64,000 nucleotides of DNA from contig NZ_CP061080.1 of the NCBI RefSeq assembly GCF_014495845.1, positions 919,001 to 983,000 of the forward strand, read 5' to 3'. The DNA is from Aquibium microcysteis (GTDB lineage Bacteria; Pseudomonadota; Alphaproteobacteria; Rhizobiales; Rhizobiaceae). Made by a program: the position numbers and the translations under genes. The notes beneath the pieces were generated by a model. That model had not been told where the DNA came from and searched no databases. It saw nothing but the letters and a program-made list of their open reading frames with translations. Numbering within the stretch: position 1 is the first letter of the stretch; every line of letters starts with the position of its first letter. Shown piece after piece: positions 7,180 through 42,387 of this stretch.

Positions 7180-7215
7180 TCAATATCAGGCAGCCATATA
7201 TCCGTCAACCTGATA
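7180..7215 (-). promoter_or_regulatory. Promoter with operator A (TATCAGG-N3-CCTGATA family) for the ferulate operon
   Basis: Read on the minus strand, a -35-like TTGACG (7208-7203) is followed after 2 bases by a 17-bp inverted repeat TATATGG-CTG-CCTGATA (7200-7184). A weak -10 TATTGA (7185-7180) overlaps the repeat's end at the usual 17-bp spacing. A further half-site TATCAGG (7215-7209) abuts the -35 box. The arrangement would let a bound repressor block RNA polymerase. Related sites lie at 13550-13566, 26064-26080, 36545-36561 and 42371-42387. The regulator is not identified. Confidence 0.6.
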
Positions 7216-7220
7216 CGGCC

Positions 7221-7946
7221 TCAACCTCGCCCGAGGAACGGCATCGAGACCGGCAGGATGGTGGACTCGAACAGGTTCACGTCGTCCGGCAGTGTCGCCA
7301 TGATCAGCGCCACGCGGGCGACGTCGGCCGGGTTCATCGAGCCCGGCCGCGGCCGGTCCGTGATCCCGGGAACCAGCATGCTGGTGGTCGAGCCCGGATG
7401 CAGCATCGACACCGCGATGCCGTGCTCGCGCCCGTCGAGCGCCAGCGAGCGGGTCAGGCCCTCGAGCGCGAACTTGCTCGCGGTGTAGGCCGCGGTGTGC
7501 TGTCGCGGCACCTTTGCGGAGATGCTGCCGACATTGATGATGCGGCCGCGGCCGCGCGGGATCATCATGCGCAGCGCCGCCCGGCTGCACAGGAAGACCG
7601 AGGTCAGGTTGATCCGCATCACCTCCTCCCAGCGCGCCAGCGCCAGGTCGACGGTCGGCGTGTGGTCGGCGATGCCGGCATTGTTGACCACCACGTCCGG
7701 ATCGCCGAAAGCCTCGCGGCAGCGCGCGAAGAGCGCCTCGACCTGCGCTTCGTCGGTGACGTCGCAGGGGACGGCGAGCGCCGTGCCGCCGGCGCCGGCG
7801 ATTTCCGCGGCGAGGTCGTCGAGCTTGCCGGCAGTGCGGGCGGCGAGCACGCATCGGGCGCCGGCGGCCGCATAGGTCTTGGCGATCTCCCAGCCGATGC
7901 CGGAACTCGCGCCGGTGACGATGGCGGTCTTTCCGTGAAGATGCAT
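7221..7946 (-). CDS. Classical short-chain dehydrogenase/reductase
   Basis: Classical SDR of 241 residues, an NAD(P)(H)-dependent oxidoreductase. The cofactor motif TGASSGIG is at 11-18, NNAG at 88-91, and the catalytic triad is Ser141, Tyr154 and Lys158 (YTASK). Length and order are standard. The AAR after the second beta strand, rather than an acidic residue, mildly favours NADP. It lies 20 bp after the LuxR-type regulator and probably shares its transcript. Its stop is only 66 bp before the ferulate operon start, with operator A between them. A role in reducing or oxidising an aromatic side-chain carbonyl would fit the context but is a guess. Confidence 0.82.
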   Translation of the reverse strand: MHLHGKTAIVTGASSGIGWEIAKTYAAAGARCVLAARTAGKLDDLAAEIAGAGGTALAVPCDVTDEAQVEALFARCREAFGDPDVVVNNAGIADHTPTVDLALARWEEVMRINLTSVFLCSRAALRMMIPRGRGRIINVGSISAKVPRQHTAAYTASKFALEGLTRSLALDGREHGIAVSMLHPGSTTSMLVPGITDRPRPGSMNPADVARVALIMATLPDDVNLFESTILPVSMPFLGRG

Positions 7947-7966
7947 GTCGGTTTCCTTCGTCGTGG

Positions 7967-13538: not shown

Positions 13539-13580
13539 TTGACAAGCCATGTATGGCGGCCTGATATAAGGATGCCATAT
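13539..13580 (+). promoter_or_regulatory. Promoter with operator B for the tctBAC operon
   Basis: A perfect TTGACA (13539-13544) is followed 5 bases later by the 17-bp element TGTATGG-CGG-CCTGATA (13550-13566). A -10-like TGATAT (13562-13567) begins at 17-bp spacing inside the element. The right arm matches the shared consensus exactly, and the left arm is degenerate in the same way as site A read on the minus strand (TATATGG). A second inverted pair, TATGGC (13552-13557) and GCCATA (13574-13579), overlaps it. The rest of 13387-13756 has no recognisable gene; a minus-strand TATACT (13462-13457) could be the hydroxylase operon -10. Confidence 0.6.
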
Positions 13581-13756
13581 GATCCGGGGGAGGGACAGCG
13601 TAGGGAAGGGGCGGTCGCCGGACGACGTTTGAGAATGTCAAAGCCGATTGGTCTGCCGCGAACGCGGTGCGGGGAGTTCCGGTGCCGGGAGGCGTCGCCC
13701 CTGTGAATGCCGGCGCCGCTGCGCCGGAGCATTGAATGTCCTTGGGAGGAGGATTG

Positions 13757-16950: not shown

Positions 16951-17427
16951 TTGTCCACGAGCAAAGCTTCGACCGGCGCGGATCGCGCGATCCTGCGTCC
17001 GCGCGCCATGTTCTTCCTCAACCAGGCCAATCATGCGGTGCGCAGCCGCCTCGACGCCGCGCTGGCCGCCGTCGAGATGACGGGAATCCAGTACACCGTG
17101 CTCAGCGTCATCGGCCGCCACGAAGGGCTTTCGTCGGCGGAACTGTCGCGCCGCTTCTTCGTCACGCCGCAGACGATGAACGAACTGATCGGGTTGCTCG
17201 AGCGGCGCGACTACATCGTCCGCAAGGCCGATCCCGCCAACCGGCGCATCCTGCGCATGTCGGTCACCGATACCGGGCGGGGGATGCTGGAGACATGCGA
17301 TGCCCTGGCAGACGCGGTCGAGCGCGACGTGTTCGGCGGCATGGCGGACGAGGACTACCGCCGGCTCTGCGAACTCACCCGCGATCTCGCGCGCCATCTG
17401 CGCACGCGCGACGAGCCGGCCGCCTGA
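16951..17427 (+). CDS. MarR-family transcriptional regulator
   Basis: Winged-helix regulator. I set the start at TTG 16951 (158 residues), with AAGGGGGA upstream, because the frame before it has a non-coding look; ATG 17008 (MFFLNQANHAV) would give a shorter protein. The core has the MarR order: dimerisation helix (LNQANHAVRSRLDAAL), GIQYTVLSVIG, recognition helix region LSSAELSRRFFVTPQTMNELI, wing RKADPANRRILRMSVT and a C-terminal helix. In Sphingobium SYK-6 and Rhodopseudomonas, MarR proteins (FerC, CouR) repress ferulate or coumarate genes and respond to the CoA thioester. This protein is therefore my leading candidate for the shared 17-bp operator. The link is inference. Confidence 0.82.
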   Translation: MSTSKASTGADRAILRPRAMFFLNQANHAVRSRLDAALAAVEMTGIQYTVLSVIGRHEGLSSAELSRRFFVTPQTMNELIGLLERRDYIVRKADPANRRILRMSVTDTGRGMLETCDALADAVERDVFGGMADEDYRRLCELTRDLARHLRTRDEPAA

Positions 17428-17477: not shown

Positions 17478-18494
17478 TCAGCCGGTCAGGCCGAGCAACT
17501 TTTCGGCATTGCCGTGGTAGAGCTTGTGACGGACCTCTTCGCTGACGTCGAGCGCGTCGAGGATGCGCAGCGTCTCGCGGATGTACATCGGCCCGCCTTC
17601 CGGATCGAAGGGGGCATCCGAGGCGAACACCACGCGGTCCTCGCCGAAGAATTCGATCGCGTGCTCGATCGCCTTGCGCGACCCGAAGGAGGCGGTGTCG
17701 GCGTAGAACTCCTTGAAATAGTCGAGATGCGGCCGCTTCAGCGCCTTCAGCACCCCGGTCAGGTCGCGGTCGCTGGTGCGCTTGCCGAGCTGGTCCCAGC
17801 CGGGACCGACGCGGCCCTCGAAATAGGGGATCATCCCGCCGGCATGGTGGGTGATGACCTTGAGACCCGGATACTTGTCGAACATGCCCGAGAAGACCAT
17901 GCGCGCCATGGCGGCAGAACTCTCGTAGGGCCAGCCGAGCGTCCACCAGATCTCGTATTCGGAGCGGCTCTCGCTCTCGTAGTCGGAGAAGTTCTGGGCG
18001 CGGGCGGGGTGCAGCCAGATCGGCTTGCCGGCCTTGGCCATGTAGTCGAAGAAGGGCGCATATTCCGGCAGGTCGACCGGCTTGCCCGAGATGTTGGTGA
18101 AGATCTGCATGCCGGCGGCGCCGAGATCGTCGATAGCGCGGCGGCACTCCTCGATCAGCGCGTCGGGATTGTTCATCGGCGCCGTGCCGATGAAGGCCGG
18201 AAAGCGATCGGGATATTTCTGGCAGAGCTCGGCCATCGAATCGGAGCCGATCTGCGACAGTTCCAGCGCGCCCTGCGGCCCGGCGAACTTCTCCAGCGGC
18301 GGCGAGGCCAGCGACAGCACCTGCTGGTACTCGTCGCCGAACATGTCCATCACCTCGAAACGGCGGTCGAGGTCCGTCATCATCGGCACGTCGCCCGACC
18401 GCTTGGTCATGTCCGACATGGTGCCGAGTTCCTTGACGAGCCGGTCGAAGAAGGGCTTCGGCCAGATGTGGTTGAAGATGTCGATCTTCCGCAT
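17478..18494 (-). CDS. Amidohydrolase-2 family protein (ACMSD-type decarboxylase/hydrolase)
   Basis: TIM-barrel metalloenzyme of 338 residues. The family includes ACMSD, gamma-resorcylate decarboxylase and 5-carboxyvanillate decarboxylase (LigW). The N-terminus KIDIFNHIWPK matches the ACMSD DxHxH start except that the first His is Phe7, leaving His9. Other expected ligands are present: His162 (IWLHPAR), His216/His217 (THHAGG) and Asp293 (FASDAPFD). It probably uses a single divalent metal. It lies 75 bp downstream of the FAD-linked oxidase and may be the last gene of the operon starting at 26027. Decarboxylation of an aromatic acid such as a carboxyvanillate is plausible but unproven. Confidence 0.8.
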   Translation of the reverse strand: MRKIDIFNHIWPKPFFDRLVKELGTMSDMTKRSGDVPMMTDLDRRFEVMDMFGDEYQQVLSLASPPLEKFAGPQGALELSQIGSDSMAELCQKYPDRFPAFIGTAPMNNPDALIEECRRAIDDLGAAGMQIFTNISGKPVDLPEYAPFFDYMAKAGKPIWLHPARAQNFSDYESESRSEYEIWWTLGWPYESSAAMARMVFSGMFDKYPGLKVITHHAGGMIPYFEGRVGPGWDQLGKRTSDRDLTGVLKALKRPHLDYFKEFYADTASFGSRKAIEHAIEFFGEDRVVFASDAPFDPEGGPMYIRETLRILDALDVSEEVRHKLYHGNAEKLLGLTG

Positions 18495-18569
18495 GGGTCT
18501 CTCCAGTCTGCGAGGTTTGGTGTTGGTCTGTCCGTCCCGGCCGGCGGGTCGACCGCCGGCCGTGCGATG

Positions 18570-19946
18570 TCAGCCGGCCTGTCCGAGCTTGCCGGGGTTC
18601 ATGATGCCGGCCGGATCGAGCGCCGCCTTGATGGCGTTCATGACGTCGACGGCCTCCCCGTGCTCGCGGCGCAGATAGGGGAGCTTGGCGATGCCGATGC
18701 CATGCTCGCCGCTGAAGGTGCCGCCCATCTCCAGCGCCCGGGCGTAGAGACGGCCGGCGAGGCGCTCGGCCTCGGCCAGTTCCTCGGGAATCTCCGGCTT
18801 GATCAGATAGCCGACATGGAAATTGCCGTCGCCGACATGGCCGATGATCTTGGCGGTGAGGAAGGATTGATCGACGTCGGCGCGCGCGGCGAGCACCGCC
18901 TCGGCGAGGCGCGAGATCGGAACGCAGACGTCGGTGGTGTAGGTCTTGCAGCCGGGGCGCAGCGACTGGTTGGCGTAGATCGTCTCGTGGCGTGCCTTCC
19001 AGAGCCGCTCGCGATCCTCGGGCAGCGTCGACCAGGCGAAATCGGAGCCGCCGGAATCGGCCGCGATGGCGGCGACGCTGCGCGACTGCTCCTCGACCCA
19101 GTTCGGGCTGCCGTGGAACTCCAGGAAAAGGGTCGGCGCACGCCTGAGGCCGAGATTGGAATGCGCGTTGGCCGCGTCGATCGCCACCTCGTCCAGGAAT
19201 TCGATGCGGGCCACGGGAATCCCGCTCTGGATCGTGGCGACGACGGCCTCGACCGCGCCGCGCATGGTCTCGAAGGCGCAGACGGCAGACGCGATCGTCT
19301 CCGGGATCGGCTGCAGCCGCACGGTGACCTCGGTGATGACGCCGAGCGTCCCCTCGGCCCCGACGAAGAGCTTGGTCAGGTCGTAGCCGCTGGAGGATTT
19401 CTTCACGCGGCGCCCCGTCGTGATGACCTTGCCGGTCGGCGTGACCACGCGCAGCGCCAGCACGTTCTCGCGCATGGTGCCGTAGCGCACCGCCGTGGTC
19501 CCGCTCGCCCGCGTCGAGGCCATGCCGCCGAGCGTCGCGTCCGCACCCGGATCGATCGGGAAGAACAGGCCCATGTCGCGCAGATGCGCGTTGAGCTGCT
19601 TGCGCGTGACGCCGGCCTCCACCACCGCGTCGAAATCCTCGCCGTTGACGGCGACGATCCGGTTCATGCGGCTGACGTCGAGCGAGATCCCGCCGCGCAG
19701 CGGGATCGTGTGGCCCTCCATGGAAGAGCCGGCGGCGAAGGGCGTGACCGGCACGCCGGCCTCGTGGCAGGCGGCGACCACCCGCTGCACGTCGTCCTCG
19801 TTCTCGGCAAAGACCACGGCGTCCGGCAGGTGCGCCGGCTGGCGCGACATGTCGCGTCCGTGGTGGTCGCGTACGGCGTCGGCCACCGAGAGCCGCTCGC
19901 CGAAATGCGCCTTGAGGCGGTCGATCGTCTCCCGGAGCCGCGTCAT
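18570..19946 (-). CDS. FAD-linked oxidase, GlcD / D-lactate dehydrogenase type
   Basis: Flavoprotein of 458 residues in the vanillyl-alcohol-oxidase fold. The N-terminal PCMH-type FAD domain (about 35-215) shows PFAAGSSMEGH, DPGADATLGGM and SSSGYDLTKLFVGAEGTLGVITEVTVRLQP. The C-terminal FAD-oxidase cap ends with GHVGDGNFHV (metal/substrate His residues), SGEHGIG and LDPAGIMNPGK. The family oxidises D-2-hydroxy acids to 2-oxo acids, passing electrons to cytochrome or quinone. It sits 7 bp after the second thiamine enzyme in the same operon as an FMN-dependent 2-hydroxyacid dehydrogenase. Together the two could handle both enantiomers of one hydroxy acid. Confidence 0.87.
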   Translation of the reverse strand: MTRLRETIDRLKAHFGERLSVADAVRDHHGRDMSRQPAHLPDAVVFAENEDDVQRVVAACHEAGVPVTPFAAGSSMEGHTIPLRGGISLDVSRMNRIVAVNGEDFDAVVEAGVTRKQLNAHLRDMGLFFPIDPGADATLGGMASTRASGTTAVRYGTMRENVLALRVVTPTGKVITTGRRVKKSSSGYDLTKLFVGAEGTLGVITEVTVRLQPIPETIASAVCAFETMRGAVEAVVATIQSGIPVARIEFLDEVAIDAANAHSNLGLRRAPTLFLEFHGSPNWVEEQSRSVAAIAADSGGSDFAWSTLPEDRERLWKARHETIYANQSLRPGCKTYTTDVCVPISRLAEAVLAARADVDQSFLTAKIIGHVGDGNFHVGYLIKPEIPEELAEAERLAGRLYARALEMGGTFSGEHGIGIAKLPYLRREHGEAVDVMNAIKAALDPAGIMNPGKLGQAG

Positions 19947-19953
19947 CGCCGCC

Positions 19954-21603
19954 TCACGCGCCCGCCGCCGCGCGGTGATAGCGCGAGCGCTGGATTTCCT
20001 TGGCGGTGATGAATTCGAGCAGGACGGGGATGCCGGCCTTCGTCTTCTCGATGCCGCGGCGGATCGCCGGCACGATCTCGTCCGGCGTCGTCACCCGCTC
20101 GCCATGGGCGCCCATGGCCCGGGCGAAGGCGGCGTAGTCGCCGGAGATGTCGGTCGAGCGGTATTTCACGGTCGAGACTGGCATGATCGGCAGCTCCATC
20201 GCCATGGAGAAATTGTTGAGCAGGATCGACAGGATCGGAATGCGCTCGCGCACGGCGGTCTCGAAGTCCATGCCGGTGAAGCCGATGGCGGCGTCGCCCC
20301 AGACGTTGATGCAGAGCTTGTCGGGATGAGCGAGCTTGGCGCCCATCGCGAGCCCGAGGCCGTAGCCGAGCTGGGTCGACTTGCCCCAGCCGATATAGGT
20401 CAGCGGCTCGACGGTCTTCCAGAACGGCGAAAGCTGGTCGCGCGGACTGCCGGCATCGTGGGTGATGATCGTATTGGCCACGTCGACCGTCTGCTGCAGG
20501 TCCCAGAGCACCCGGTAGGGTGACAGCGGCGCGTCGTTCGAGGTGAGCTTCGGCATCCACATGGCGAGCCATTCGGCCTGCACGGCGGCGATCTCTGCGG
20601 CGGTGCCGGCGGCGTCGCGACGGGGTGTCCCGCGCGCGTCGAGCGCGGCGAGCACGGCGTCGAGCGTCAGCGCCGCGTCGCCGACCAGCGCCACCGTCGC
20701 CTCGACGTCCTTGTTGACGTGGTCGGGGTCGAGCGTGGCATGGACGATCGTCTTGCCGAGCGGCATCTGCACGCCGAAGGCGGTCTCGGTGAACGAGCAG
20801 CCGATGCCGAAGATCAGGTCGGACGCGTCGAGGAAGTGGCGCAGCGTCTTCGAGATCGCAGCACCGCCCGCGCCGATCGACAGGTCGTGCGTCTCGGGGA
20901 AGGCGCTCTTGCCTTCGAGGCTGGTCGCCACCGGGATCGCCAGGCGCTCGGCCAGCGCCTTCAGCTGCGGCCAGGCCTTCGCGTAGTGGACGCCCTGGCC
21001 GGCATAGAGCACCGGGCGCTTCGCGGCGAGCAGGAGGTCGACGGCGGCGTCCACGGCGGCCGGGTCGGGGCCGTAGCGGGTGGCGAGCACCGGGCGGTAG
21101 TCGAGCGGTTCCGGCACGTCGAGCTGCCACATGTCGTTCGGGATCTCGACCAGCACCGGGCCGCCGCGGCCGTTGCGCAGCCGGCTGAACGCGCGGCGGA
21201 AGACGTTGACCAGTTCTGCGGCCGAGGTGATCGGCTCGGCCGACTTGGTGATCGTCCGCATCGAGATCGTGGCGTTGTAGTTCGGGTCGACATGGGCGAG
21301 CCGGCGCTCGTAGCCCATCGGCAGCACCAGCAGCGGCACCGACTCCGAATAGGCCTGCGCGATGCCGCCATAGGAATTTTCCGTGCCCGGTCCGAGCTGC
21401 ATGGCGAAGACGCCGATCCGGCGGCCCGACGACAGCCGCGAGATCGCGTCGGCCATGTGGATGCCGGTGCGTTCCTGCCGCACGATCACCGGGCGGATGT
21501 CCGCCTCCGCCGCGCGCTCCAGCACGTGGTTGACCGGGTAGCCGCAGATCAGGTCGACGCCCTCGCGCCTGAGGATCTCGGCGATCGCCGCTCCGAGCTT
21601 CAT
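19954..21603 (-). CDS. Thiamine-diphosphate-dependent enzyme (acetolactate synthase-like), copy 2
   Basis: ThDP enzyme of 549 residues with three domains: N-terminal PYR domain with catalytic Glu44 (IVRQERTGIHMADA), a central Rossmann-like domain (VLYAGQGVHYA), and a C-terminal PP domain with the Mg/ThDP motif WGDAAIGF...LLNN. The ATG at 21603 overlaps the preceding stop (ATGA). It could act as a 2-oxo acid decarboxylase or carboligase on the product of the neighbouring hydroxyacid dehydrogenases. It differs strongly from the ThDP enzyme two genes upstream, so this is not a recent duplication. Both keep the activating Glu and cofactor motif, arguing against one being an inactive subunit. Confidence 0.85.
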   Translation of the reverse strand: MKLGAAIAEILRREGVDLICGYPVNHVLERAAEADIRPVIVRQERTGIHMADAISRLSSGRRIGVFAMQLGPGTENSYGGIAQAYSESVPLLVLPMGYERRLAHVDPNYNATISMRTITKSAEPITSAAELVNVFRRAFSRLRNGRGGPVLVEIPNDMWQLDVPEPLDYRPVLATRYGPDPAAVDAAVDLLLAAKRPVLYAGQGVHYAKAWPQLKALAERLAIPVATSLEGKSAFPETHDLSIGAGGAAISKTLRHFLDASDLIFGIGCSFTETAFGVQMPLGKTIVHATLDPDHVNKDVEATVALVGDAALTLDAVLAALDARGTPRRDAAGTAAEIAAVQAEWLAMWMPKLTSNDAPLSPYRVLWDLQQTVDVANTIITHDAGSPRDQLSPFWKTVEPLTYIGWGKSTQLGYGLGLAMGAKLAHPDKLCINVWGDAAIGFTGMDFETAVRERIPILSILLNNFSMAMELPIMPVSTVKYRSTDISGDYAAFARAMGAHGERVTTPDEIVPAIRRGIEKTKAGIPVLLEFITAKEIQRSRYHRAAAGA

Positions 21604-22835
21604 GGCCTGTCTCCTCCCAGGGTGTCGCGCGGCCAGGCCGTCGCATGCCGCACCGGCGCCTGCCGCGCCTCCGCTGCCGAGCGCAGGCCGCATTGGCCGA
21701 GCGCGATGGTGAACTCGTCGATGAAGCTCGCCGCCATGTGGCGCGCCCCGTCGTCGCCGATCGCCGCGAGCGCCAGCATGAAGGCGCGCCCGGCGAAGGT
21801 GGAGCGGGCGCCGCAGGCGAGCGCCCGCATCATGTCGACGCCCGATGTGACGCCGCTGTCGAGGATCACCGTCATGTCGTCTCCGACGGCGGCGGCGATG
21901 GCGGGCAGCACGTCGATCGAAGCGGGGGCGGCGTCGAACTGCCGGCCGCCATGGTTGGAGACGATCACGCCGTCCATGCCGATCGAGCGGGCCTGTGCGG
22001 CGTCAGCCGGATGCAGCACGCCCTTGACCAGCATCGGCCCGCGCCAGGCTTCGCGCAGCCGCGCCAGCACCTCCCAGGCGAAACCGCCGCCGACATGGGC
22101 GCCGACGAAGGCTGCGGGATCGCGCCCGCCGGCATAGGGCACGATGTTGGCGAAGGCCGGTTTGCCGCGCCGCACCAGGGCGCCGAGCCAGGGCGGCGAG
22201 GCGGCGATGTCGATGGCGTTGCGCGGTCCGATCCGGAACGGCATCACGAAGCCGTTGCGCAGGTCGCGCGGCCGCTTCGAGCGCACCGGCACGTCGAGCG
22301 TGGCGACCAGGACCCGCGCTCCGGCCGCTTGCGCGCGGCGCGCGAGGTCGAAGCTGACGCGGTGGTCGTCCGCCGCCAGCGGATAGAGCTGGAACCAGGT
22401 GACGTCGGGTGCCCGGCGCGTGACGTCCTCGATCGTGGCGGTGGCCAGCGTGCCGACGAGATAGGGGATGTTCATGCGCTGCGCGGCTCGGGCGAAGAGC
22501 TCGGTCGCGCCCGGCCACATCAGCCCGTCCATGCCGATGGGCGAGATGCCGATCGGCGCGGCGTAGCGGTGGCCGAAGAGCTCGACCGAGGTGTCGACGT
22601 CGCGGACCTCGCGGCCGTAGCGCGGCACGATCTCGATGCTGCGCAGCGCGGACCGGTTGCGCGCCGGGCCGCCGTCGTCGCCCGCGCCGCCCTGCAGGAA
22701 TTCGAAGGCGAAGCGCGGGATGCGCCGTGCGGCGCGTCGCTCGAGGTCCTCGATCGTCGGGAAGCGGCGCCGCAGCAGCGGCAGACGCTGCGCCAGCCGC
22801 GCCTCGTCCGGTTCGATCGGCGCCCGCGCGTCCAC
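21600..22835 (-). CDS. FMN-dependent alpha-hydroxy-acid dehydrogenase (lactate/mandelate dehydrogenase family)
   Basis: TIM-barrel flavoenzyme of 411 residues that oxidises an L-2-hydroxy acid to the 2-oxo acid. The start is GTG at 22835, sharing one base with the previous gene's TAG. Hallmarks are PIGISPIGMDGLMWPGAE-like FMN binding near 95-111, WFQLYP with Tyr151, Lys271, the catalytic pair His295 and Arg298 in SNHGGRQFD, and the DSGVTSGVDMMRAL phosphate loop. The family's substrate-carboxylate Tyr (Tyr24 of spinach glycolate oxidase) is Phe45 here (FEFLQGGAGD). It lies between two thiamine enzymes, as expected for a mandelate-like route: hydroxy acid, oxo acid, aldehyde, acid. Confidence 0.87.
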   Translation of the reverse strand: MDARAPIEPDEARLAQRLPLLRRRFPTIEDLERRAARRIPRFAFEFLQGGAGDDGGPARNRSALRSIEIVPRYGREVRDVDTSVELFGHRYAAPIGISPIGMDGLMWPGATELFARAAQRMNIPYLVGTLATATIEDVTRRAPDVTWFQLYPLAADDHRVSFDLARRAQAAGARVLVATLDVPVRSKRPRDLRNGFVMPFRIGPRNAIDIAASPPWLGALVRRGKPAFANIVPYAGGRDPAAFVGAHVGGGFAWEVLARLREAWRGPMLVKGVLHPADAAQARSIGMDGVIVSNHGGRQFDAAPASIDVLPAIAAAVGDDMTVILDSGVTSGVDMMRALACGARSTFAGRAFMLALAAIGDDGARHMAASFIDEFTIALGQCGLRSAAEARQAPVRHATAWPRDTLGGDRP

Positions 22836-24532
22836 TAGTAGCTCACCACCACGTCGAGCAGCGCCTGCCGTCCCGCGCGCGTCGCCTCGAGCGCCCGCCG
22901 GATGGCGGCAGGCAGTTCGGCGCCGTCCTCGACCCGTTCGGCATGGGCGCCGTGGGCGCGGGCGATGGCGGCATGGTCGGGCGTCGGGTCGAGCGCGGTG
23001 ATCGGCATGACGTTGGCGGCGGCGGCCCTGCCGTCGGGATACATGTAGAGCGTGGAGCGCCGCACCGCGTTCCAGATGCCGTTGTTGAAGACGACGGTGA
23101 GCAGGGGCAGCTTCAGCGCCGCGGCCGTCTGGTGGCAGGCGACGGGGTTCGCGAACATGTAGGAGCCGTCGCCGATGGTGGCGATGACCTGCTTGCCCCG
23201 GTTGCCGAACTGCGCGCCGAGGGCTGCGGTGAGGCCCCAGCCGAGCCCGCCGGACAGCGGCGTCCCGAAATAGCTGTCGGGCGCTTCGAGCCGCATCGCC
23301 GCCGGCTCGATGCCGAGTTCGTTGAAGAAGACGGTGTCGGCGTCGGCGGCATCCGACAGGCACCGGCTGACATAGGCGGGCGACATCGGCGAACCGCTGC
23401 CCCTGGCCAGCCGCTTCTCGATTGCTTCTGCGGCAGCCGCGCGGGCGGCGGCGACCCTGGCGCGGCGTTCTTCGAAGGTCTCCCCGGCCGGGACCCGTTC
23501 TGCGAGTGCGGCGTCGAGCGCGGCGAGACCCGCATGCACGTCGCCGGCCAGCGAGACGTCGACGCGGAAGCTGCGCATCGGCACGGCCGGATGGAGCGGC
23601 TGCGGCCCGAGTGCCACGACTGTGCAGCCGTCCGCCGGCTGCACGTGCGCGGCGACCCAGGGAACCATGGCGGCGGCCACGACGATGACGTCTGCTTCGC
23701 GGACCCAGGCCGTCGGCTCCTGGCCGACGAGCATCGGATGGCTGGACGGCAGGGACTGCCGCGTCGCCCAGTACTCGACCACCGGCAGCGCGAAGCGCTG
23801 CGAAAAGCCGGCCAGCGGCTCGAATCCGTCGCCGCAGCCGCCGCTCTGCGTGATGATGACGGGGTTCTTCGCACGGGCGAGCGCATCGGCCGCGCAGGCG
23901 ACCGCTTCCTTGGCCGGAGGTCCATAGGTGGTGGGCACCACCGCCGGCCCGGCGGCCGTCAGGTCGACGGCCTCCGCCAGGACCTCGCGCGGCAGGCTGA
24001 CATAGACCGGGCCGCGCGGCTCGCTCATGGCGATGCCCACCGCGCGGTCGATCACCGCGGCCGCCTGTTCGGGATAGCGCAGCTCGTAGTCCCACTTGAC
24101 GACCTCGCGGACCATGCCGGCCTGGTCGCGCATCTCCTGGCCCCAGTGGATCGGGCTCGACCGGCTACCGAAGCGGCCGCTCTCGGTCAGCGGCGTGCGG
24201 CCCGAGCACATCAGGATGGGCACGTTCTCCGATGCGGCGTTGATCAGCCCCATCACCGCATTGGCGAGCCCGACATTGACGTGCACCATCACCGCCGCCG
24301 GCTTGCCGGTGACGAGATAGTAGCCGTGCGCCATGCCGACCGCGACGCCCTCGTGCGGGATGACGAGCGGCTCGGGCATGGCGATGCCGCTCTCCGGCGC
24401 GCGTGCATAGGCCTCGATGATGGACGGGAAATCCGTGCCGCCATTGGCGAAGAGCACGTCGATCCCGGCCGCCTTCATCCGGCCGAGCACGGCCTCCGCG
24501 GCGAAGCTGCCGTCCGGCTGGGTGTGTTTCAT
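22835..24532 (-). CDS. Thiamine-diphosphate-dependent enzyme (benzoylformate decarboxylase/acetolactate synthase-like), copy 1
   Basis: ThDP enzyme of 565 residues with PYR, central and PP domains. Glu61 in IPHEGVAVGMAHGYY is the cofactor-activating residue. IGDGSYMFANP and the following FNNG form the Mg/ThDP site. Domain order and length fit decarboxylases and synthases of the acetolactate-synthase superfamily. It follows the aldehyde dehydrogenase by 28 bp and overlaps the FMN dehydrogenase by one base. By analogy with mdlBCD, this or the second copy would decarboxylate an aryl 2-oxo acid to an aldehyde for the dehydrogenase upstream. The actual substrate is unknown. Confidence 0.85.
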   Translation of the reverse strand: MKHTQPDGSFAAEAVLGRMKAAGIDVLFANGGTDFPSIIEAYARAPESGIAMPEPLVIPHEGVAVGMAHGYYLVTGKPAAVMVHVNVGLANAVMGLINAASENVPILMCSGRTPLTESGRFGSRSSPIHWGQEMRDQAGMVREVVKWDYELRYPEQAAAVIDRAVGIAMSEPRGPVYVSLPREVLAEAVDLTAAGPAVVPTTYGPPAKEAVACAADALARAKNPVIITQSGGCGDGFEPLAGFSQRFALPVVEYWATRQSLPSSHPMLVGQEPTAWVREADVIVVAAAMVPWVAAHVQPADGCTVVALGPQPLHPAVPMRSFRVDVSLAGDVHAGLAALDAALAERVPAGETFEERRARVAAARAAAAEAIEKRLARGSGSPMSPAYVSRCLSDAADADTVFFNELGIEPAAMRLEAPDSYFGTPLSGGLGWGLTAALGAQFGNRGKQVIATIGDGSYMFANPVACHQTAAALKLPLLTVVFNNGIWNAVRRSTLYMYPDGRAAAANVMPITALDPTPDHAAIARAHGAHAERVEDGAELPAAIRRALEATRAGRQALLDVVVSY

Positions 24533-24560
24533 GGCGTTGGCCTCCCTGCCTGTATGCGCT

Positions 24561-26059: not shown

Positions 26060-26088
26060 GTATCATCAGGGCCCCTGATAATTGTCAA
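26060..26088 (-). promoter_or_regulatory. Promoter with operator C for the mandelate-like operon
   Basis: On the minus strand a perfect TTGACA (26088-26083) is followed after 2 bases by TATCAGG-GGC-CCTGATG (26080-26064), with a -10-like TGATAC (26065-26060) at 17-bp spacing. Only one base of the 14 arm positions departs from a perfect inverted repeat. It lies 37 bp upstream of the aldehyde dehydrogenase start. The divergent DsbA-fold gene starts 94 bp away on the other side, so the site could affect both. Confidence 0.65.
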
Positions 26089-28795: not shown

Positions 28796-28834
28796 GCTTG
28801 ACTAGGCGGACGCCGAGAACCCAAAGTGCCGAAT

Positions 28835-29776: not shown

Positions 29777-29813
29777 CGGGGCCACCATCCGCCCTGTCCG
29801 AGCGTGCCGATTT

Positions 29814-29830: not shown

Positions 29831-29927
29831 GGAGGCCAGCTATTGGTGCGGGGGTCGCTCTGCTAACGTCCTGCGGATAGGGAGAGCCGGGGCGAAGCCC
29901 GACCGATTGCCGACTGGGAGGACGACC

Positions 29928-31337: not shown

Positions 31338-31338
31338 G

Positions 31339-31354
31339 CCGACCGATCGGTCGG
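31339..31354. repeat. 16-bp perfect palindrome between amidase and ABC binding-protein genes
   Basis: CCGACCGATCGGTCGG begins 2 bp after the amidase stop and ends 22 bp before the binding-protein ATG. It could form a small hairpin that modulates the downstream gene, or act as a dimeric repressor site. There is no U tract, so it is not a typical terminator. Confidence 0.4.
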
Positions 31355-31376
31355 ATGCTTCAGGGAGGATGTAGAC

Positions 31377-32969: not shown

Positions 32970-32990
32970 GCGGACGGCGGGAGGAACGGA

Positions 32991-33932: not shown

Positions 33933-33936
33933 ACCG

Positions 33937-36445: not shown

Positions 36446-36531
36446 GGCGGCAACCGGCGCCTAGGGCAGCATCTGGCGCCTAGGGCGGCAACTGGCGCCC
36501 AAGGCGGCAACTGGCGCCTGAAGCGGAATCC
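36437..36531 (+). repeat. Five-unit 19-bp tandem repeat
   Basis: Five head-to-tail 19-bp units: 36437-36455, 36456-36474, 36475-36493, 36494-36512 and 36513-36531. Consensus GGCGCCTAGGGCGGCAACT. Units 1-4 differ by 1-4 bases and unit 5 is more degenerate. The ATPase stop (TAA, 36443-36445) is in unit 1, and the array ends 6 bp before the -35-like box of the thioesterase promoter. Each unit carries the palindrome GGCGCC. It is not a CRISPR: there are no spacers. Confidence 0.9.
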
Positions 36532-36536: not shown

Positions 36537-36561
36537 TTGCCATATATCAGGAACCCTGATA
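36537..36561 (+). promoter_or_regulatory. Promoter region with operator D (perfect inverted repeat)
   Basis: TTGCCA (36537-36542), 2 bases, then TATCAGG-AAC-CCTGATA (36545-36561), a perfect 7-3-7 inverted repeat and the best copy of the shared element. The geometry relative to the -35-like hexamer is the same as at sites A and C. No good -10 is visible. It lies 26 bp upstream of the thioesterase ATG. Confidence 0.65.
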
Positions 36562-36587: not shown

Positions 36588-37514
36588 ATGGGCGGTCAGG
36601 ACGGCATCGGCGGGATCGAAGTCTGGCGTGGCGGCGTCAACGCCTGGGAATGCGACGAGATGGGTCACATGAACACCCGGTTCTACGTCGTGCGTTGCAT
36701 GGAGGGCCTGTCCGTCCTGTTCGCGTTCTCCGGCCTGCCCGGCATCTTCGCGGCAGGCGCGACCGTGACCCTGCAGGTCGACGAAATGCACATCCGTTTC
36801 CACCGCGAGGCGGCCGTGGCGACGCCGCTGCGGCTGACGGCGGGGTTCGTGCGGGTGGGCGAGGCGGATGCGGACGTGGTGGCGCTGCTGCATCACGGCA
36901 TCGGCGGAGCGCTCGCGGCGACCTTCCGGGTCGTGCTGAGGGCCGCTGCACCGGACGGCGGCGCGGCGGAATGGCCGGCATCCTTCCGCGAGCGGGCAGC
37001 AGGGCTCGGCATGGCCGTGCCGGCGGAGGCGCGCCCGCGCAGCGTGAAGAGCGGGCCGGTCCCGGCGATCGATGCAGCCCGCGCGCTCGAGGCCCACAGG
37101 CGGATCTCGCTCGGCGCGCTCGCGCCCGCCGACTGCGATGCCTTCGGGCGCATGCTGCCGCAGAAGTTCATGGGCGCCGTCGCCGACGGCATCCGGCAGC
37201 TGACGACGCCGCTGCGCGAAGTCGTCGTGGCGCATGCCGACCCCGCGCCGACGCATTTCGGCGGGGCGGTGCTGGAATTCCGGATGGTGCATTGCGGCCG
37301 GCCGCGCACCGGCGACTGTTTCGAGGTCCGCTCGGCCTTCACGGCGGCCGACGGCAAGACGATGTCGCTCGAGCACTGGATGATCGACCCGATCGACGGC
37401 CGGGTCTGGGGCCATATGGAATCGGTGGCGGTCGTGTTCGACATCGACCGCCGCAAGATCGTCGGCATCACCGCCGCGGCGCTCGAAGCGCTCCGCCCGA
37501 TGATGCTCGCCTGA
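36588..37514 (+). CDS. Double-hotdog acyl-CoA thioesterase family protein
   Basis: Protein of 308 residues from ATG at 36588, with GGGAGGA upstream. The first hotdog (about 10-140) has NAWECDEMGHMNTRFYV, matching the 4HBT-type D-x2-GH-x-N motif, followed by the central helix and FRVVLRA strand. The second half (about 165-305) repeats the pattern: CDAFGRMLPQKFMGAVADGI, FEVRSAFTAADGKTMSLEHWMID. Such proteins hydrolyse acyl-CoA thioesters and could recycle CoA in aromatic catabolism. It is the only gene directly behind operator D, and the next gene is convergent. Confidence 0.75.
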   Translation: MGGQDGIGGIEVWRGGVNAWECDEMGHMNTRFYVVRCMEGLSVLFAFSGLPGIFAAGATVTLQVDEMHIRFHREAAVATPLRLTAGFVRVGEADADVVALLHHGIGGALAATFRVVLRAAAPDGGAAEWPASFRERAAGLGMAVPAEARPRSVKSGPVPAIDAARALEAHRRISLGALAPADCDAFGRMLPQKFMGAVADGIRQLTTPLREVVVAHADPAPTHFGGAVLEFRMVHCGRPRTGDCFEVRSAFTAADGKTMSLEHWMIDPIDGRVWGHMESVAVVFDIDRRKIVGITAAALEALRPMMLA

Positions 37515-37565: not shown

Positions 37566-39104
37566 CTATTCGGCCGGGCTCATCGGCGCGCAGGCGAAGT
37601 TCGCCGCATCGTTGGTGTCGCCGCTGCCCTTGTAGGTCGCGATCGTCGGATAGGGGCAGAGCGGTCGCGTCATCGGGCTGTCGGCCTTCGAGGCGATGAT
37701 CCGCTCCGGCGCCTCGCCCTTCTCGACCCAGTTCTCCAGAGCAGTCAGCATGTCGAAGCGGTCGGGTCCGGCGCCGCCGCGGCAGTGGCCGACGCCCGGC
37801 GCGAGGAAGTAGCGCACGCTGTCGGTCACCGGTGCATCGATCTGCGGCCCGACGGTGGCCTCCACGGCCTTGTAGTATTGCAGCGTCTGCAGCGCGCTCG
37901 GGCCGGAATCGTTGAAGCCGTGCCAGAGCAGGAGCTTGCCGCCGCGCTTCACGAAGGGCGCGATGTCGGGATCCGTCGGGATCATGTAGTCGGTCGCCTT
38001 CGTCCCCAGCAGCTTCGCCATCTCCGTGTCGGGATCGAAGGTCAGCGGATCCCAGTCCGGGTCCTGCTTGTAGAGATAGGCCGTGGCGACGCCGCCGAAA
38101 TGGACGTTGAGTCCCTTGGGCAGCGGCGGAATGCCCACGAAGCGCATCACCCAGTCGCTCTCGCCGCCGCGCAGCGTCGGGTCGGACACCGTGAGGCCGT
38201 CGGGCGTGACGTAGCCGGCATAGAGCTTGCGCACCGCGCCGGCCTGCTCCGGCGACAGGCACGCGGCGCCGGCGGTCTGGCCGGCCTCGCACTCGATCTC
38301 GGCCGGATCCCAGGTGCAGGCGAGCGGGTTGGTCAGGTAGCCGTCCTTCACCCCGTCGACCGCGTCGCAGGCCGCGATCACGGCGTCGCGGATCAGCGGC
38401 ACCTGCTCGGCGGTGATCAGCGCGCCGGGCGTGTTGCGGAAGACCTGCGCCCGCTGGATCGACTGGGAGTAGAGCACCCAGCTGAACACCGGCGCGCCGG
38501 CGATGACGCCGTCGAAATCGTCCGGATGGCGCTGCGTTTCGGTCATGCCCTGGCGCCCGCCCGTCGAGCAGCCCTGCCAGTAGGCATGCGTCTGCGGCCG
38601 GCCGTAATGGGCCGCCACGAGGGCCTTGCCGACGACGGCCGACACGTGGGCGGCGCGCTCGCCGAAATCGGCGAGCACGACCTCGTTGAGCTGGCCCTTC
38701 TCCGTGATCATCCAGTCCATGCCGAGAGATTCGGTGCCGCCGTGGCCCATGTTGGTGCCGATGGTGGCGTAGCCGCGCGCCAGTGCGGGCGCGGCCGTCT
38801 CCAGCTTGGTGTCGCCGGCGAAGCCGCTGCCGCCGAGGGCGAGGAACTTGCCGTTCCAGTCCAGCGGCAGGCGCGTGACGGTGACGATCTGCGAGCCGGG
38901 AGCCGAGGCATTGACCGCCTCGACCTCGCAATAGGCGGGCAGTCCGTCCGCCGCGGCGACGTCGCGGGCGGCGGTGACGGTGGTGTCGGCGACCAGGCCG
39001 GGCTGCATGAGCGCGGCGCAGTCGGCGGCGAGCGCCGCCTGCGCGGTGCCGGCCGCCAGGACCAACGCCAGTCCGGCGGCGACTGTCTGTCTTCGGGTCG
39101 TCAT
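37566..39104 (-). CDS. Secreted tannase/feruloyl esterase family enzyme
   Basis: Serine esterase of 512 residues, exported by an N-terminal signal (TVAAGLALVLAAGTAQAALA, cleavage near 27). ATG at 39104 has AAGGAGGAG upstream; longer in-frame starts read through an Arg-rich non-coding stretch. The tannase-family CS-D-HC arrangement is complete: Cys179-Ser180 in GCSTGG, Asp399 in HGFNDSG and His440-Cys441 in GVGHCRGG, where the two Cys bridge next to the active site. Family members release ferulate, gallate or similar acids from plant esters, or hydrolyse MHET in one case. A feruloyl ester is the best guess given the ferulate operon at 1836-7154. Confidence 0.85.
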   Translation of the reverse strand: MTTRRQTVAAGLALVLAAGTAQAALAADCAALMQPGLVADTTVTAARDVAAADGLPAYCEVEAVNASAPGSQIVTVTRLPLDWNGKFLALGGSGFAGDTKLETAAPALARGYATIGTNMGHGGTESLGMDWMITEKGQLNEVVLADFGERAAHVSAVVGKALVAAHYGRPQTHAYWQGCSTGGRQGMTETQRHPDDFDGVIAGAPVFSWVLYSQSIQRAQVFRNTPGALITAEQVPLIRDAVIAACDAVDGVKDGYLTNPLACTWDPAEIECEAGQTAGAACLSPEQAGAVRKLYAGYVTPDGLTVSDPTLRGGESDWVMRFVGIPPLPKGLNVHFGGVATAYLYKQDPDWDPLTFDPDTEMAKLLGTKATDYMIPTDPDIAPFVKRGGKLLLWHGFNDSGPSALQTLQYYKAVEATVGPQIDAPVTDSVRYFLAPGVGHCRGGAGPDRFDMLTALENWVEKGEAPERIIASKADSPMTRPLCPYPTIATYKGSGDTNDAANFACAPMSPAE

Positions 39105-39192
39105 CGTCTCTCTCCTCCTTCTGGTTGCACGGCAATGCTGCCGGCGATCCCGCCGCCTCGGCCTCCGGGCTCCTCTCCCGGAATCAGCCCGC

Positions 39193-39921
39193 TCAGCGGA
39201 AGCGTTCGGCCGTCGCGACACTGTTGATCAGCGCGGCGAGCTCCTTGCGGGAGGCGAAGGACGCCTCCGGCGCGGTCGACAGGAAGGCCTTGACGGCCCG
39301 CACCGTGGCGACCGAGTTCCTTGCCAGCTGCGCGACGATGCGCTCCGTCTCGGCCTCCAGCGCGTCGGTCGCGGCGACGACGCCGATGAGGCCGAGCGCT
39401 TTCGCCTCCGGCGCGGAGATCGCGTCGCGGGTCAGCACCAGACGCGCCAGCACCGCGCGGGGCAGGCGGTCGGCGAGCGCGTTCATCACCAGCGTCGGGG
39501 CGATGTCGTGGTTCATCTCCGGCACCTGGAAGAGCGCCGTGTCGGCGGCGACCGCCACGTCGGCGAGAGCGGCGATGGCGCAGCCGACGCCGCTGGCGCG
39601 GCCGCGCACCTGGCTCACCACCGGCACCGGGACCTCCCGCAGGACCTGGTAGAAGTCCAGCACCGGATCGGAGATCAGGCGTCGCAGGTCGAGCGCGGTG
39701 GCGCGGGTGCCGGCCGGCGGCATCGCCGCGCTGCGGCCGGTGCAGAAGTCGGTGCCGGCGCCGCGGACGAGCACTGCCCGCGTGTCCGGGTCGAGGGTGC
39801 GCAGCGCCGACGTGATCGCCTCGGCCATGACGGGCGTCAGCGCGTTGCCGTGATCGGGCCGGCTGAGCTCGATGTCGAGCACGTGGTCGTCGCGCCGGGT
39901 GATGATGACGTCGCTGCTCAC
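39193..39921 (-). CDS. Enoyl-CoA hydratase/isomerase family protein
   Basis: Crotonase-fold protein of 242 residues. GTG at 39921 overlaps the preceding stop (GTGA). Visible elements are LSRPDHGNALTPVM, the first oxyanion segment GAGTDFCTGR, the second RGRASGVGCAIAALADVAVAA, and the acidic region FQVPEMNHDIAP. Not of the HCHL type, since the NGWCFGG and SEINWG motifs are absent. Its coupling to a molybdenum hydroxylase subunit and, 88 bp further, a feruloyl esterase suggests a side-chain CoA pathway. Substrate unknown. Confidence 0.82.
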   Translation of the reverse strand: MSSDVIITRRDDHVLDIELSRPDHGNALTPVMAEAITSALRTLDPDTRAVLVRGAGTDFCTGRSAAMPPAGTRATALDLRRLISDPVLDFYQVLREVPVPVVSQVRGRASGVGCAIAALADVAVAADTALFQVPEMNHDIAPTLVMNALADRLPRAVLARLVLTRDAISAPEAKALGLIGVVAATDALEAETERIVAQLARNSVATVRAVKAFLSTAPEASFASRKELAALINSVATAERFR

Positions 39922-42290
39922 TGGCTGTCTCCTCCGCTGATCGTCTGCCTTGCCCTTGCGTCCTGGATCGCCTGCCAGATCCGCGGCGGCGTCGCCGGCA
40001 TCTCGACGTGACGCACGCCGAGATGGGCGAGCGCGTCCACGACGGCATTGATGGTGACGCCGAGCGCCGGCGTCGTGCCGCCTTCGCCGCCCGGCCGGAA
40101 TCCCATCGGGTGATTTGCCGAGGGGATTTCGCTCAGGTCGGTGACGAAGGACGGAAAGTCGCCGGCGCGGGCGACCGCATAGTCCATCAGGGACGCCGAC
40201 AGCGTCTGGCCGCTGTCGTCGAAGTGCATGCACTCGAGCAGCGCCTGTCCGGCACCCTGGACGATGCCGCCATGGGTCTGGCCGTGCACGATCATCGGGT
40301 TGAGTGCGCGGCCGACGTCGTCCACCGAGACGTAGTTGGCGATCTCCCATGCGCCCGTCTCCGGGTCGATCTCGATCTCGCAGACGGCGGCGCCGTAGGG
40401 AAAGGCGAGACCCGCGGTGACCGCGTCGGCGACGGCGCGGAAGGGGCCTCGCAGCGGCGCGGGCAGGCCGGCGCCGTCCTCGGCCTGACGGGCGAGCTCG
40501 AACAGGGTGGCGACGCGGTTGGTTCCGGCGACGCGGAAGAGGCCGTCCTCGGCGGCGATCTCGTCGAGCGGCCGGCCGGCGAGGGCGGCAAGCACGCTGC
40601 GGGCGCGCAGCACGATCTCCTCCGACGCCTGCCGGAAGACGATGGAGGCGAAACGCAGCGAACGGCCCGAATGCGAGCCGCCGCCGGCAGAGACGAAATC
40701 CGTGTCGCCGGTCCGGATGCGGACGGTTGTGTGAGGGACGCCGAGGAGACCGCCGACGAGTTGCGCGAAGGCCGTCTCGTGGCCCTGGCCGGTGTTCTGG
40801 GTCCCCACGACGACGTCGATCGTCCCGCCGGAGGCGTCGATGGCGATCTCGGCGCGCTCGCGGGGAATGCCGCTGGTGCCCTCGATGTAGTTGCCGAAGC
40901 CGATCCCGCGGCAGCGCCCGCGCGCTCGCGCCTCGGCCCGGCGGGCCTCGAAGCCCTCCCAGTCGGCGAGATCGAGCGCCCTCTGCATGACCGCCTCGTA
41001 GGCGCCGTTGTCGTAGGTCACGCCGAAAGGGTTGCGGTAGGGCTGCGCCTGCGGCGGGATCATGTTGCGGCGGCGCAGCGCGATCCGGTCGAATCCGCAC
41101 TGGCGGGCGGCGAGGTCGATCATGCGCTCGATCGCATACATGGCTTCCGGCCGACCGGCGCTGCGATAGGGGATGGTCGGCGGCGTGTTGGTCATCACCG
41201 CGCGCGCCGCGACGCAGGCAGCCGGAACGCGGTAGAGGCTCGTCATCAGCTGCGCGCCCTTGTTGAGCGGCACGTAGGAGACGGTGTTGGCGCCGACGTT
41301 GGACGTGTTGGTCGAGCGGAAGGCGAGGAAGGTGCCCTCAGCGTCCAGCGCCAGCTCCGCCTCGATCTCGAGGTCGCGGCCCTGGTAGTCGGCGAGGAAG
41401 GATTCGGTGCGGTCGGCGATGTGACGCACCGGACGTCCGGTCTGCCGCGCCGCGAGCGCCAGCGCCACGAACTCCGGATAGAGCGCGTTTCGTGTGCCGA
41501 AATTGCCGCCGACGTCGGGCGGCGCGACGACGCGCACCAGGGCCGGGTCGACGCCGAGCGTCGCGGCGAGCTGGTCGCGCATGGCCACCACGCCGATCCC
41601 GCTCGAGGCGTGCAGCGTGAAGCGTCCGGTGGCGGCGTCATAGGCCGCGGCGCTGCTGCGCGGCTCCATGTGCGCGCCGGTCACGCGCTGGACATGGCTT
41701 CGGAAGGCCACGCGGTGGGCCGCCGCCTCGAAAGCCGCCGCGGTCGCGGCCGGGTCGCCGATCACCGCCTCGAGCGCGAGGTTGCCGGGCACGTGGTCCC
41801 AGAGCAGAGGGGCGTCCGGTTGCATGGCGGCCGAGGCCCGTGTGACGGCGTCGAGCACCTCCCACTCCACCGCGATCCGATCGGCCGCGTCCCTGGCGAC
41901 GTCGTGGCTTTCGGCGACGACTGCGGCGAAAGCCTCGCCGACATGGCGCACCCGGTCGTCCGGCAGGACGCGGTGGGGCGTGCGGGCCCGCTCCGACCCG
42001 TCGGCATTGGCCAGCGGGACGTCGGCACCGGCCTTCGACGTGCCGATCGCGTGAGGAAGGGGGGCGAGCGCCCGCACGGCCGCGTCGCCGCCCGTGAGGA
42101 CGGCCAGAACGCCGGGGACGGCCAGCGCCTCGGCGACGTCGATCGCCCGGATCCGCGCATGGGCGTGCGGCGACCGCGCGAACACGGCGAAGGCGGCGTT
42201 CGCGAAGCGCAGGTCGTCGGCGAACCGTCCGGCTCCGCGAACGAGTCGGTCGTCTTCCGTCCGGAGAACCTCCTCGCCGATTCCCTTCAT
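39918..42290 (-). CDS. Xanthine dehydrogenase-family molybdopterin-binding (large) subunit
   Basis: Molybdenum hydroxylase catalytic subunit of 790 residues, hydroxylating an aldehyde, purine or aromatic heterocycle with water as oxygen source. ATG at 42290 precedes the standard start GIGEEVLRTEDDRLVRGAGRF. Landmarks are VGGNFGTRN (Mo-cofactor region), IPYRSAGRPEAMYAIER, GTQNTGQGHETAF and catalytic Glu736 in RPGGEGGTTPALG. The loop lacks the AYRCSFR Cys signature of CO dehydrogenase, so it is not CoxL. The usual 2Fe-2S and FAD partner subunits are not encoded anywhere in the window, so electron transfer partners must come from elsewhere. Confidence 0.88.
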   Translation of the reverse strand: MKGIGEEVLRTEDDRLVRGAGRFADDLRFANAAFAVFARSPHAHARIRAIDVAEALAVPGVLAVLTGGDAAVRALAPLPHAIGTSKAGADVPLANADGSERARTPHRVLPDDRVRHVGEAFAAVVAESHDVARDAADRIAVEWEVLDAVTRASAAMQPDAPLLWDHVPGNLALEAVIGDPAATAAAFEAAAHRVAFRSHVQRVTGAHMEPRSSAAAYDAATGRFTLHASSGIGVVAMRDQLAATLGVDPALVRVVAPPDVGGNFGTRNALYPEFVALALAARQTGRPVRHIADRTESFLADYQGRDLEIEAELALDAEGTFLAFRSTNTSNVGANTVSYVPLNKGAQLMTSLYRVPAACVAARAVMTNTPPTIPYRSAGRPEAMYAIERMIDLAARQCGFDRIALRRRNMIPPQAQPYRNPFGVTYDNGAYEAVMQRALDLADWEGFEARRAEARARGRCRGIGFGNYIEGTSGIPRERAEIAIDASGGTIDVVVGTQNTGQGHETAFAQLVGGLLGVPHTTVRIRTGDTDFVSAGGGSHSGRSLRFASIVFRQASEEIVLRARSVLAALAGRPLDEIAAEDGLFRVAGTNRVATLFELARQAEDGAGLPAPLRGPFRAVADAVTAGLAFPYGAAVCEIEIDPETGAWEIANYVSVDDVGRALNPMIVHGQTHGGIVQGAGQALLECMHFDDSGQTLSASLMDYAVARAGDFPSFVTDLSEIPSANHPMGFRPGGEGGTTPALGVTINAVVDALAHLGVRHVEMPATPPRIWQAIQDARARQTISGGDSQ

Positions 42291-42370
42291 TCGTCTCGTC
42301 CTCTCCGTCTCGTACCGTCGATGCGACGTCCGCCACGCGCCCGCGCGCTCCTCAGGTCTCGCGACACGCA

Positions 42371-42387
42371 TATCAGGGAGACTTATA
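42371..42387 (-). promoter_or_regulatory. Operator E (degenerate copy) upstream of the molybdenum hydroxylase operon
   Basis: TATCAGG-GAG-ACTTATA on the plus strand, equivalent to TATAAGT-CTC-CCTGATA read toward the operon. One arm is exact and the other matches 4 of 7 positions. It lies 81 bp upstream of the ATG at 42290. Unlike sites A-D it has no -35-like hexamer 2-5 bp away, so it is the least secure member. Confidence 0.4.

Follow-up and report, generated by a model that had tools for sequence, protein, structure and literature searches.

The window analysed here, a 64-kb stretch of the Aquibium microcysteis genome (NZ_CP061080.1, positions 919,001 to 983,000), raises the question of why copies of one 17-bp inverted repeat, TATCAGGN3CCTGATA, recur over 35 kb in front of operons that are not usually grouped, and of which protein would bind them. 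A first-pass annotation had placed five copies at 7184, 13550, 26064, 36545 and 42371, and had put forward MarR and IclR proteins as candidate binders in a shared regulon. All five copies are present at these coordinates, and two partner sites, at 7199 and 13565, bring the number in the window to seven (Table 1). Considerable confidence can be placed in the reading that they form a single switch, in which the repeats would be operators of the MarR protein encoded at 16951-17427, feruloyl- or p-coumaroyl-coenzyme A (CoA) would release this repressor, and five transcription units would be induced together. Comparative evidence upholds a shared operator behind a -35-like box at the named operons; of the two candidate regulators it favours MarR, which is very probably the binder as judged from sequence comparison, and disfavours IclR.

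The placement of the repeats in their promoters is regular. The first four copies stand close behind a hexamer of the TTGAC(A/G) or TTGCCA type, with the gaps described earlier: TTGACG at 7203-7208 (-) is 2 bp ahead of the 7184 site, TTGACA at 13539-13544 (+) 5 bp ahead of the 13550 site, TTGACA at 26083-26088 (-) 2 bp ahead of the 26064 site, and TTGCCA at 36537-36542 (+) 2 bp ahead of the 36545 site. No TTGACA-like hexamer was found beside the 42371 site. Such a hexamer adjoins 37 of 63 sites, compared with 7.3% of random places, an arrangement that fits repression.

The strong sites do not occur at chance frequency. In the window, six matches with at most three mismatches to the consensus are found where 0.54 would be expected, and 100 shuffles gave a maximum of four. 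The whole genome (6.11 Mb) has seven sites with at most two mismatches, five of which lie inside the 35 kb, while the reversed-pattern control has none; the binomial P of this clustering, 1.3e-10, is slightly flattering, since the 7184 and 7199 sites overlap. Looser patterns gave 11 forward matches in the genome against three to four in the control, and 197 against 94 for another pattern. At three mismatches the genome has 47 sites and the control 28, so that the 13550 site lacks significance by mismatch count. Since counting at this level did not discriminate, two matrices were adopted, one built from 26 sites of other genomes with none from the window, and one, the cleaner test, from the seven window sites alone. 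The other-genome matrix picks out seven places in the 64 kb, at 15.8-27.0, with the next best at 5.6; the best score in 100 simulated first-order Markov windows is 14.2, and none of the 100 reaches 15.8. The 13550 site is backed by its score of 18.0 with this matrix and by its conservation.

The MarR protein, used as a query, gave 41 related loci, mostly alphaproteobacterial, with three of the Halomonas group. The loci of Oryzicola (L023) and of two Mesorhizobium metagenome-assembled genomes (L024, L025) show synteny with the window; in them, sites stand in front of ech2 (the hydratase/lyase gene of the ferulate operon), tctB, the amidohydrolase gene, aldh2 and the thioesterase gene; in Aminobacter (L026; genome G522) sites precede ech2, tctB, the amidohydrolase gene and aldh2. 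All four loci have a counterpart of the 13550 site, and sites precede tctB also in L036 and in four Neorhizobium plasmids. Counterparts of the 13565 site score 15.1, 15.1 and 12.6 in L024, L025 and L026, with none scoring at least 11 in L023, and those of the 7199 site are weaker (12.8) in L023-L025. Pairs at the same 15-bp offset, with a weaker second copy (10.1-15.1), recur in L023-L026/G522 and in G573. The 42371 site, which had been called weak, is matched by sites ahead of the molybdenum hydroxylase orthologue in G032 (19.4), G034 (18.8) and G423 (18.8); no orthologue of this gene was found in the G522 stretch, the fourth fetched for the comparison. Upstream of the ferulate operon, an alignment of 11 genomes (the window, L023-L026 and six Rhodobacterales-type loci whose nearest mapped gene is the ligase) keeps TTGAC, ATATA, GG and CCTGATA invariant. 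The expected conservation upstream of orthologous operons is thus found in relatives for ech2, tctB, aldh2, the thioesterase and the molybdenum hydroxylase. The 26064 and 36545 sites are 10.5 kb apart in the window, as opposed to 48-97 bp in L023-L025, where they lie between aldh2 and the thioesterase gene. Because of this short distance, the block at 26165-36445 is seen to split one short divergent promoter region; part of the block adjoins marR in L045.

The regulator itself is a MarR-family protein, with Pfam matches above cut-off to MarR_2 (5.3e-14) and MarR (2.4e-9). Its nearest Protein Data Bank (PDB) chain by single sequence is HcaR (3k0l, E 2.4e-12), its AlphaFold2 model has a pLDDT (predicted local distance difference test) of 90.4, and the 50 structural matches listed by VIA-align are MarR-type proteins or carry no more specific name than transcriptional regulator. 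In the window the putative operator precedes the tctBAC-marR gene group, and in 19 of the 41 related loci a site scoring at least 16 with the window-only matrix lies within 200 bp before marR itself; random pieces of the same loci give 25 of 1500, some of which are possibly true sites. A relative of ech2 stands on the opposite side of 15 of these 19 sites.

Presence of the gene and presence of the sites go together across genomes. Since an order-wide sample of 297 genomes has marR in only four, a family sample was used, in which 13 of 297 genomes, the present one included, have the gene. At least one site with at most one mismatch occurs in nine of the 13 genomes with marR and in 57 of the 284 without it (P 2.8e-4), and at least two such sites in six of 13 and five of 284 (P 7.9e-7). 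With the window-only matrix, a site of at least 16.6 precedes ech2 in nine of 10 family genomes with marR and in none of 13 without it, whose best score is 14.0 (P 1.2e-5); this test started from 30 lyase loci, less the ech2 locus of the present genome and six paralogues (L178-L183), with one locus per genome. Four genomes of the same genus, one of them only 69% complete, have neither marR, nor a lyase at cut-off, nor a site with one mismatch, so that the cluster looks acquired.

Plasmid loci, which are outside the training material and were chosen for diversity, not randomly, among matches listed from 24 and 170 records, show the same association. Eight of the nine with a MarR relative (L188-L195, L203) have a site of at least 15.7, by the window-only matrix, before ech, fcs, tctB or marR. 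They include Neorhizobium (four), Sagittula stellata, Polymorphobacter (MarR 34% identical), Burkholderia arboris (28% identical, site TATCAGGTAGCCTGATA) and Rhodococcus opacus (L203; 36% identical, variant site TATCAGAGTCACTGATA). Eight further plasmid loci carry a lyase gene but no MarR relative within the 3.5-kb flanks (Variovorax, Sphingobium, Sphingomonas, Croceicoccus, Azospirillum, Microvirga, Sinorhizobium and Rhizobium leguminosarum); none has a site and none scores above 11.1, chromosomes not being searched, and three of the eight carry another annotated MarR. In the Rhodococcus opacus plasmid, TATCAGA-type palindromes lie between the MarR relative and the lyase gene (L203:3371-3411), which suggests that this operator family may cross phyla. 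The Sagittula stellata E-37 plasmid (L190) has this MarR together with ligase, molybdenum hydroxylase and lyase genes, and operator-like sites at 4541 and 23949; the strain is cultured and could serve bench tests.

In the proposed mechanism, a MarR dimer would bind TATMAGG-N3-CCTKATA just behind the -35 box and block RNA polymerase, and two adjacent dimers at a 15-bp offset would occupy the ferulate and tct-marR promoters. Once a hydroxycinnamate has entered and been activated, its CoA thioester (feruloyl- or p-coumaroyl-CoA) would free the repressor, and the five transcription units would switch on together. Since marR follows tctBAC, it would be induced along with the rest. Feruloyl-CoA is suggested as the effector by analogy with the family. 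It is unlikely, though to a degree that deserves attention, that the MarR protein binds the repeats but answers to some other ligand, such as a free phenolic acid, vanillin, or the 2-hydroxy or 2-keto acid of the thiamine pyrophosphate (TPP) enzyme operon. HcaR structures exist with free ferulic acid and vanillin as ligands, according to PDB entry titles, the regulon includes a mandelate-type branch, and DesR of Sphingobium SYK-6 senses vanillate and syringate (PMC6888825). Against such a ligand, marR keeps its place beside hydratase/lyase and ligase genes in relatives of several orders, and the characterised regulators of such genes answer to CoA thioesters (PMC10458429, PMC5487221).

That another regulator of the window binds the repeats, with MarR as a bystander, is improbable; the candidates are an IclR (11348-12148), a LuxR (7967-8746) and a LysR (28826-29776) protein. 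Regulation of aromatic catabolism is also known for members of all these families, and the IclR gene is syntenic in L023-L026 and the LuxR gene in L023, L024 and L026. Among the 10 genomes with marR and an ech2 site, the present one included and two of them only 83-85% complete, an IclR orthologue (E up to 1e-40) is found in five and a LuxR orthologue (E up to 1e-20) in four, and both were rejected as the binder since they were missed in five and six of these genomes. The LysR gene, not searched for genome-wide, is part of the block that is absent between aldh2 and the thioesterase gene of L023-L025. The recurrence of the site directly before marR argues against all three. Palindromes arising by chance, or structural ones of the terminator or repeat-element kind, are a very improbable explanation, since enrichment, promoter placement, recurring geometry and cross-order conservation speak against them, even though the 13550 site has only the level of match at which mismatch counting failed.

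Several observations weigh against the MarR switch as proposed. The window has no counterpart of the site that precedes the amidohydrolase gene in L023-L026, and the 26 training sites were picked among matches with at most two mismatches to the window consensus, so that the first matrix is not independent. In 22 of the 41 loci no site of at least 16 stands just before marR: L023-L026, in which marR is positioned behind tctC, 14 Neorhizobium-type loci, L053, L055 (13.0), L059 (12.9) and L061 (13.5). The Neorhizobium-type loci (L027-L034, L036-L041; marR 59-69% identical) at first seemed to be counter-examples. One of them, L036, has the tctB site; in nine others (L027-L034, L037) the 10-kb flanks seem to end short of the tct and ferulate promoters, and these nine are explained by analogy with four Neorhizobium plasmid records only. 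With the window-only matrix, sites precede tctB in all four records (21.5-23.3) and ech2 in three (17.3-18.1), with 13.1 in the fourth. The remaining four loci, L038-L041 (MarR 59-63% identical), show no operator-like site, and the 19.8-19.9 kb around two of them (L128, L129) have none scoring at least 9. No ech2 or tct relatives lie nearby except distant (28-32%) matches, and the MarR of these loci may control genes located elsewhere or have changed its specificity. There is also no ech2 site in G553 (marR 38%), the ech2 site of L188 scores only 13.1, and the Paroceanicella locus L192 (MarR 47%) has no site in a stretch that holds no such catabolic genes. Finally, the lyases of the marR-less genomes are more distant (48-58%), which partly confounds the contrast, and the one at 69% (G405) ends before its promoter. 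Confidence in the MarR switch was lowered slightly because of the site-less L038-L041 and the circular choice of training sites.

There are also possible targets far from the cluster. A tandem pair at genome positions 4322304 and 4322319 (4322304-4322335; L132:1805-1836), scoring 15.6 each and with the same 15-bp offset, precedes the gene of an NMT1-like solute-binding protein. A site at 1816675 (L135:1676-1692) overlaps a TTGACA and precedes a second tannase/feruloyl-esterase gene; its score of 12.7 is within genome-wide noise, lower than those at 4403033 (13.6) and 349530 (13.4), and it is a possible target only for the fitting function of the gene. The start of this gene holds a GC-rich tandem repeat. 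Sixteen further places in the genome, with a best score of 14.1, were not accepted; position 358985 was set aside as lying inside coding DNA, and 546823 (13.0) as preceding a TerC gene.

Table 1. Putative operators and associated genes in the window (mismatches are counted against the 17-bp consensus; scores are matrix scores)
Coordinates	Strand	Feature	Details
7184..7200	-	Putative operator A, ferulate operon	2 mismatches; score 22.5; TATCAGGCAGCCATATA on +
7199..7215	-	Putative operator B, ferulate operon	Score 15.8; overlaps 7184 site at 15 bp offset; covers -35-like hexamer
13550..13566	+	Putative operator A, tctBAC-marR gene group	3 mismatches; score 18.0; divergent FAD monooxygenase opposite
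13565..13581	+	Putative operator B, tct-marR promoter	Score 18.1; 15 bp offset from 13550 site
26064..26080	-	Putative operator, aldehyde dehydrogenase/TPP enzyme/2-hydroxyacid dehydrogenase operon	1 mismatch; score 20.9
36545..36561	+	Putative operator, thioesterase gene	Perfect, 0 mismatches; score 27.0
42371..42387	-	Putative operator, molybdenum hydroxylase/hydratase/tannase operon	2 mismatches; score 19.4
16951..17427	+	MarR-family regulator, proposed repressor of all window sites	Pfam MarR
6291..7154	-	p-Hydroxycinnamoyl-CoA hydratase/lyase (ech2), first gene of ferulate operon	NCBIfam NF006588, 415 bits (cut-off 276)
4172..6298	-	ADP-forming-type acyl-CoA ligase, candidate feruloyl-CoA synthetase	ATP-grasp_5, Succ_CoA_lig, CoA_binding_2
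2695..4140	-	Aldehyde dehydrogenase, candidate vanillin dehydrogenase	Pfam Aldedh
1836..2684	-	Second p-hydroxycinnamoyl-CoA hydratase/lyase (ech1)	NF006588, 409 bits
12163..13386	-	FAD (flavin adenine dinucleotide)-binding monooxygenase divergent from tctB	FAD_binding_3; same layout in L023-L026, L036
13736..16758	+	tctB, tctA, tctC, tripartite tricarboxylate-type transporter	Pfam TctB, TctA, TctC
17478..26027	-	Aldehyde dehydrogenase, benzoylformate-decarboxylase-like TPP enzyme, FMN (flavin mononucleotide) 2-hydroxyacid dehydrogenase, second TPP enzyme, FAD D-lactate-dehydrogenase-like protein, amidohydrolase decarboxylase	Pfam, PDB relatives
26165-36445		Intervening block: DsbA-like protein, CoA ligase, LysR, amidase, peptide-type ABC transporter	
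36588..37514	+	4HBT_2 thioesterase-like protein	
37566..42300	-	Molybdenum hydroxylase large subunit, enoyl-CoA hydratase, tannase/feruloyl esterase	

The genes of the proposed regulon are of several kinds. For the candidate feruloyl-CoA synthetase no NCBIfam model scores above its cut-off. The FAD monooxygenase gene, which diverges from tctB, may be served by the 13550 operators as well. In the group behind the 26064 site, the TPP enzyme has benzoylformate decarboxylase as its nearest PDB relative (1e-28), while the FMN enzyme matches L-lactate oxidase best (3.4e-83), then (S)-mandelate dehydrogenase and 4-hydroxymandelate oxidase. The FAD enzyme resembles D-lactate dehydrogenase in its PDB relatives; the best PDB match of the amidohydrolase is uncharacterised and is followed by 5-carboxyvanillate and gamma-resorcylate decarboxylases. 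This composition suggests a group that would oxidise both enantiomers of an aryl 2-hydroxyacid to the aldehyde and the acid. Directly upstream of the thioesterase promoter, several near-identical direct repeats of 20-odd bases (ggcggcaactggcgcc type) occupy 36440-36530. Elsewhere in the window, a 2711-residue open frame (42746-50881) without Pfam match is rich in glycine repeats, has an N-terminal hydrophobic stretch and resembles a very large secreted or autotransporter-type protein.

Taken further, and tentatively, with the balance somewhat against it, TATMAGG-N3-CCTKATA may mark a lineage of hydroxycinnamate MarR repressors found in Rhizobiales, Rhodobacterales, Sphingomonadales (one locus), the Halomonas group (three) and Burkholderia (one), with a TATCAGA variant in Rhodococcus (one). 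Further genes might fall under the same control in this Rhizobiaceae group: a tripartite tricarboxylate transporter-type uptake system, the molybdenum hydroxylase, and an undescribed branch for aryl 2-hydroxyacids in which each enantiomer has its own dehydrogenase (vanillylmandelate-like acid to vanillin to vanillate). Feruloyl-CoA would then be a general signal that lignin is present, pre-inducing a pathway that itself acts on something other than a cinnamate. The motif sequence, the probable repressor and the target list can be put to direct test, and association with hydroxycinnamates allows the substrates of opaque genes (tctBAC, the TPP/hydroxyacid group, the molybdenum hydroxylase and the thioesterase) to be guessed. 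The pair of regulator and site is also a possible sensor/operator pair for ferulate.

No description of the motif or the regulon was found among the open-licence papers listed, as judged by titles and the starts of abstracts; the motif may already be known for FerC or HcaR, since operators were compared by letters with CouR alone. The CouR box of Rhodococcus jostii RHA1, cATTGA-N5-TCAATg (PMC4737184), differs from the window consensus in letters and spacer, so that the window sites are not of the CouR operator class, and CouR serves a beta-oxidative pathway, unlike the system in the window. A Rhizobiaceae MarR repressor is known in HcaR (Atu1422) of Agrobacterium fabrum, which represses hydroxycinnamate genes and itself (PMC7797058); its pathway is likewise beta-oxidative (PMC10458429). 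HcaR of Acinetobacter, the MarR repressor of the hca genes, is 24% identical to the window MarR in structural alignment. An operator at hydroxycinnamoyl-CoA hydratase/lyase or ligase promoters, as for regulators of the HcaR, FerC, CouR and FerR type, is found at 7184/7199, in the 11-genome alignment and at other marR loci. There is a likeness to FerC and ferBA of Sphingobium SYK-6, where a MarR repressor also acts in front of a feruloyl-CoA hydratase gene; FerC has two operators upstream of ferB and is released by CoA esters (PMC5048394). In the Polymorphobacter locus (L191), marR is divergent from the lyase and ligase genes with the window motif between them. The passages of PMC5048394 consulted here describe the ferB promoter and, unlike the window, not transporter, mandelate-type or molybdenum hydroxylase operons. 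By analogy with these systems, the window MarR would be a hydroxycinnamate repressor of a known kind that governs a larger regulon, extended to a transporter, a mandelate-type operon and a molybdenum hydroxylase.

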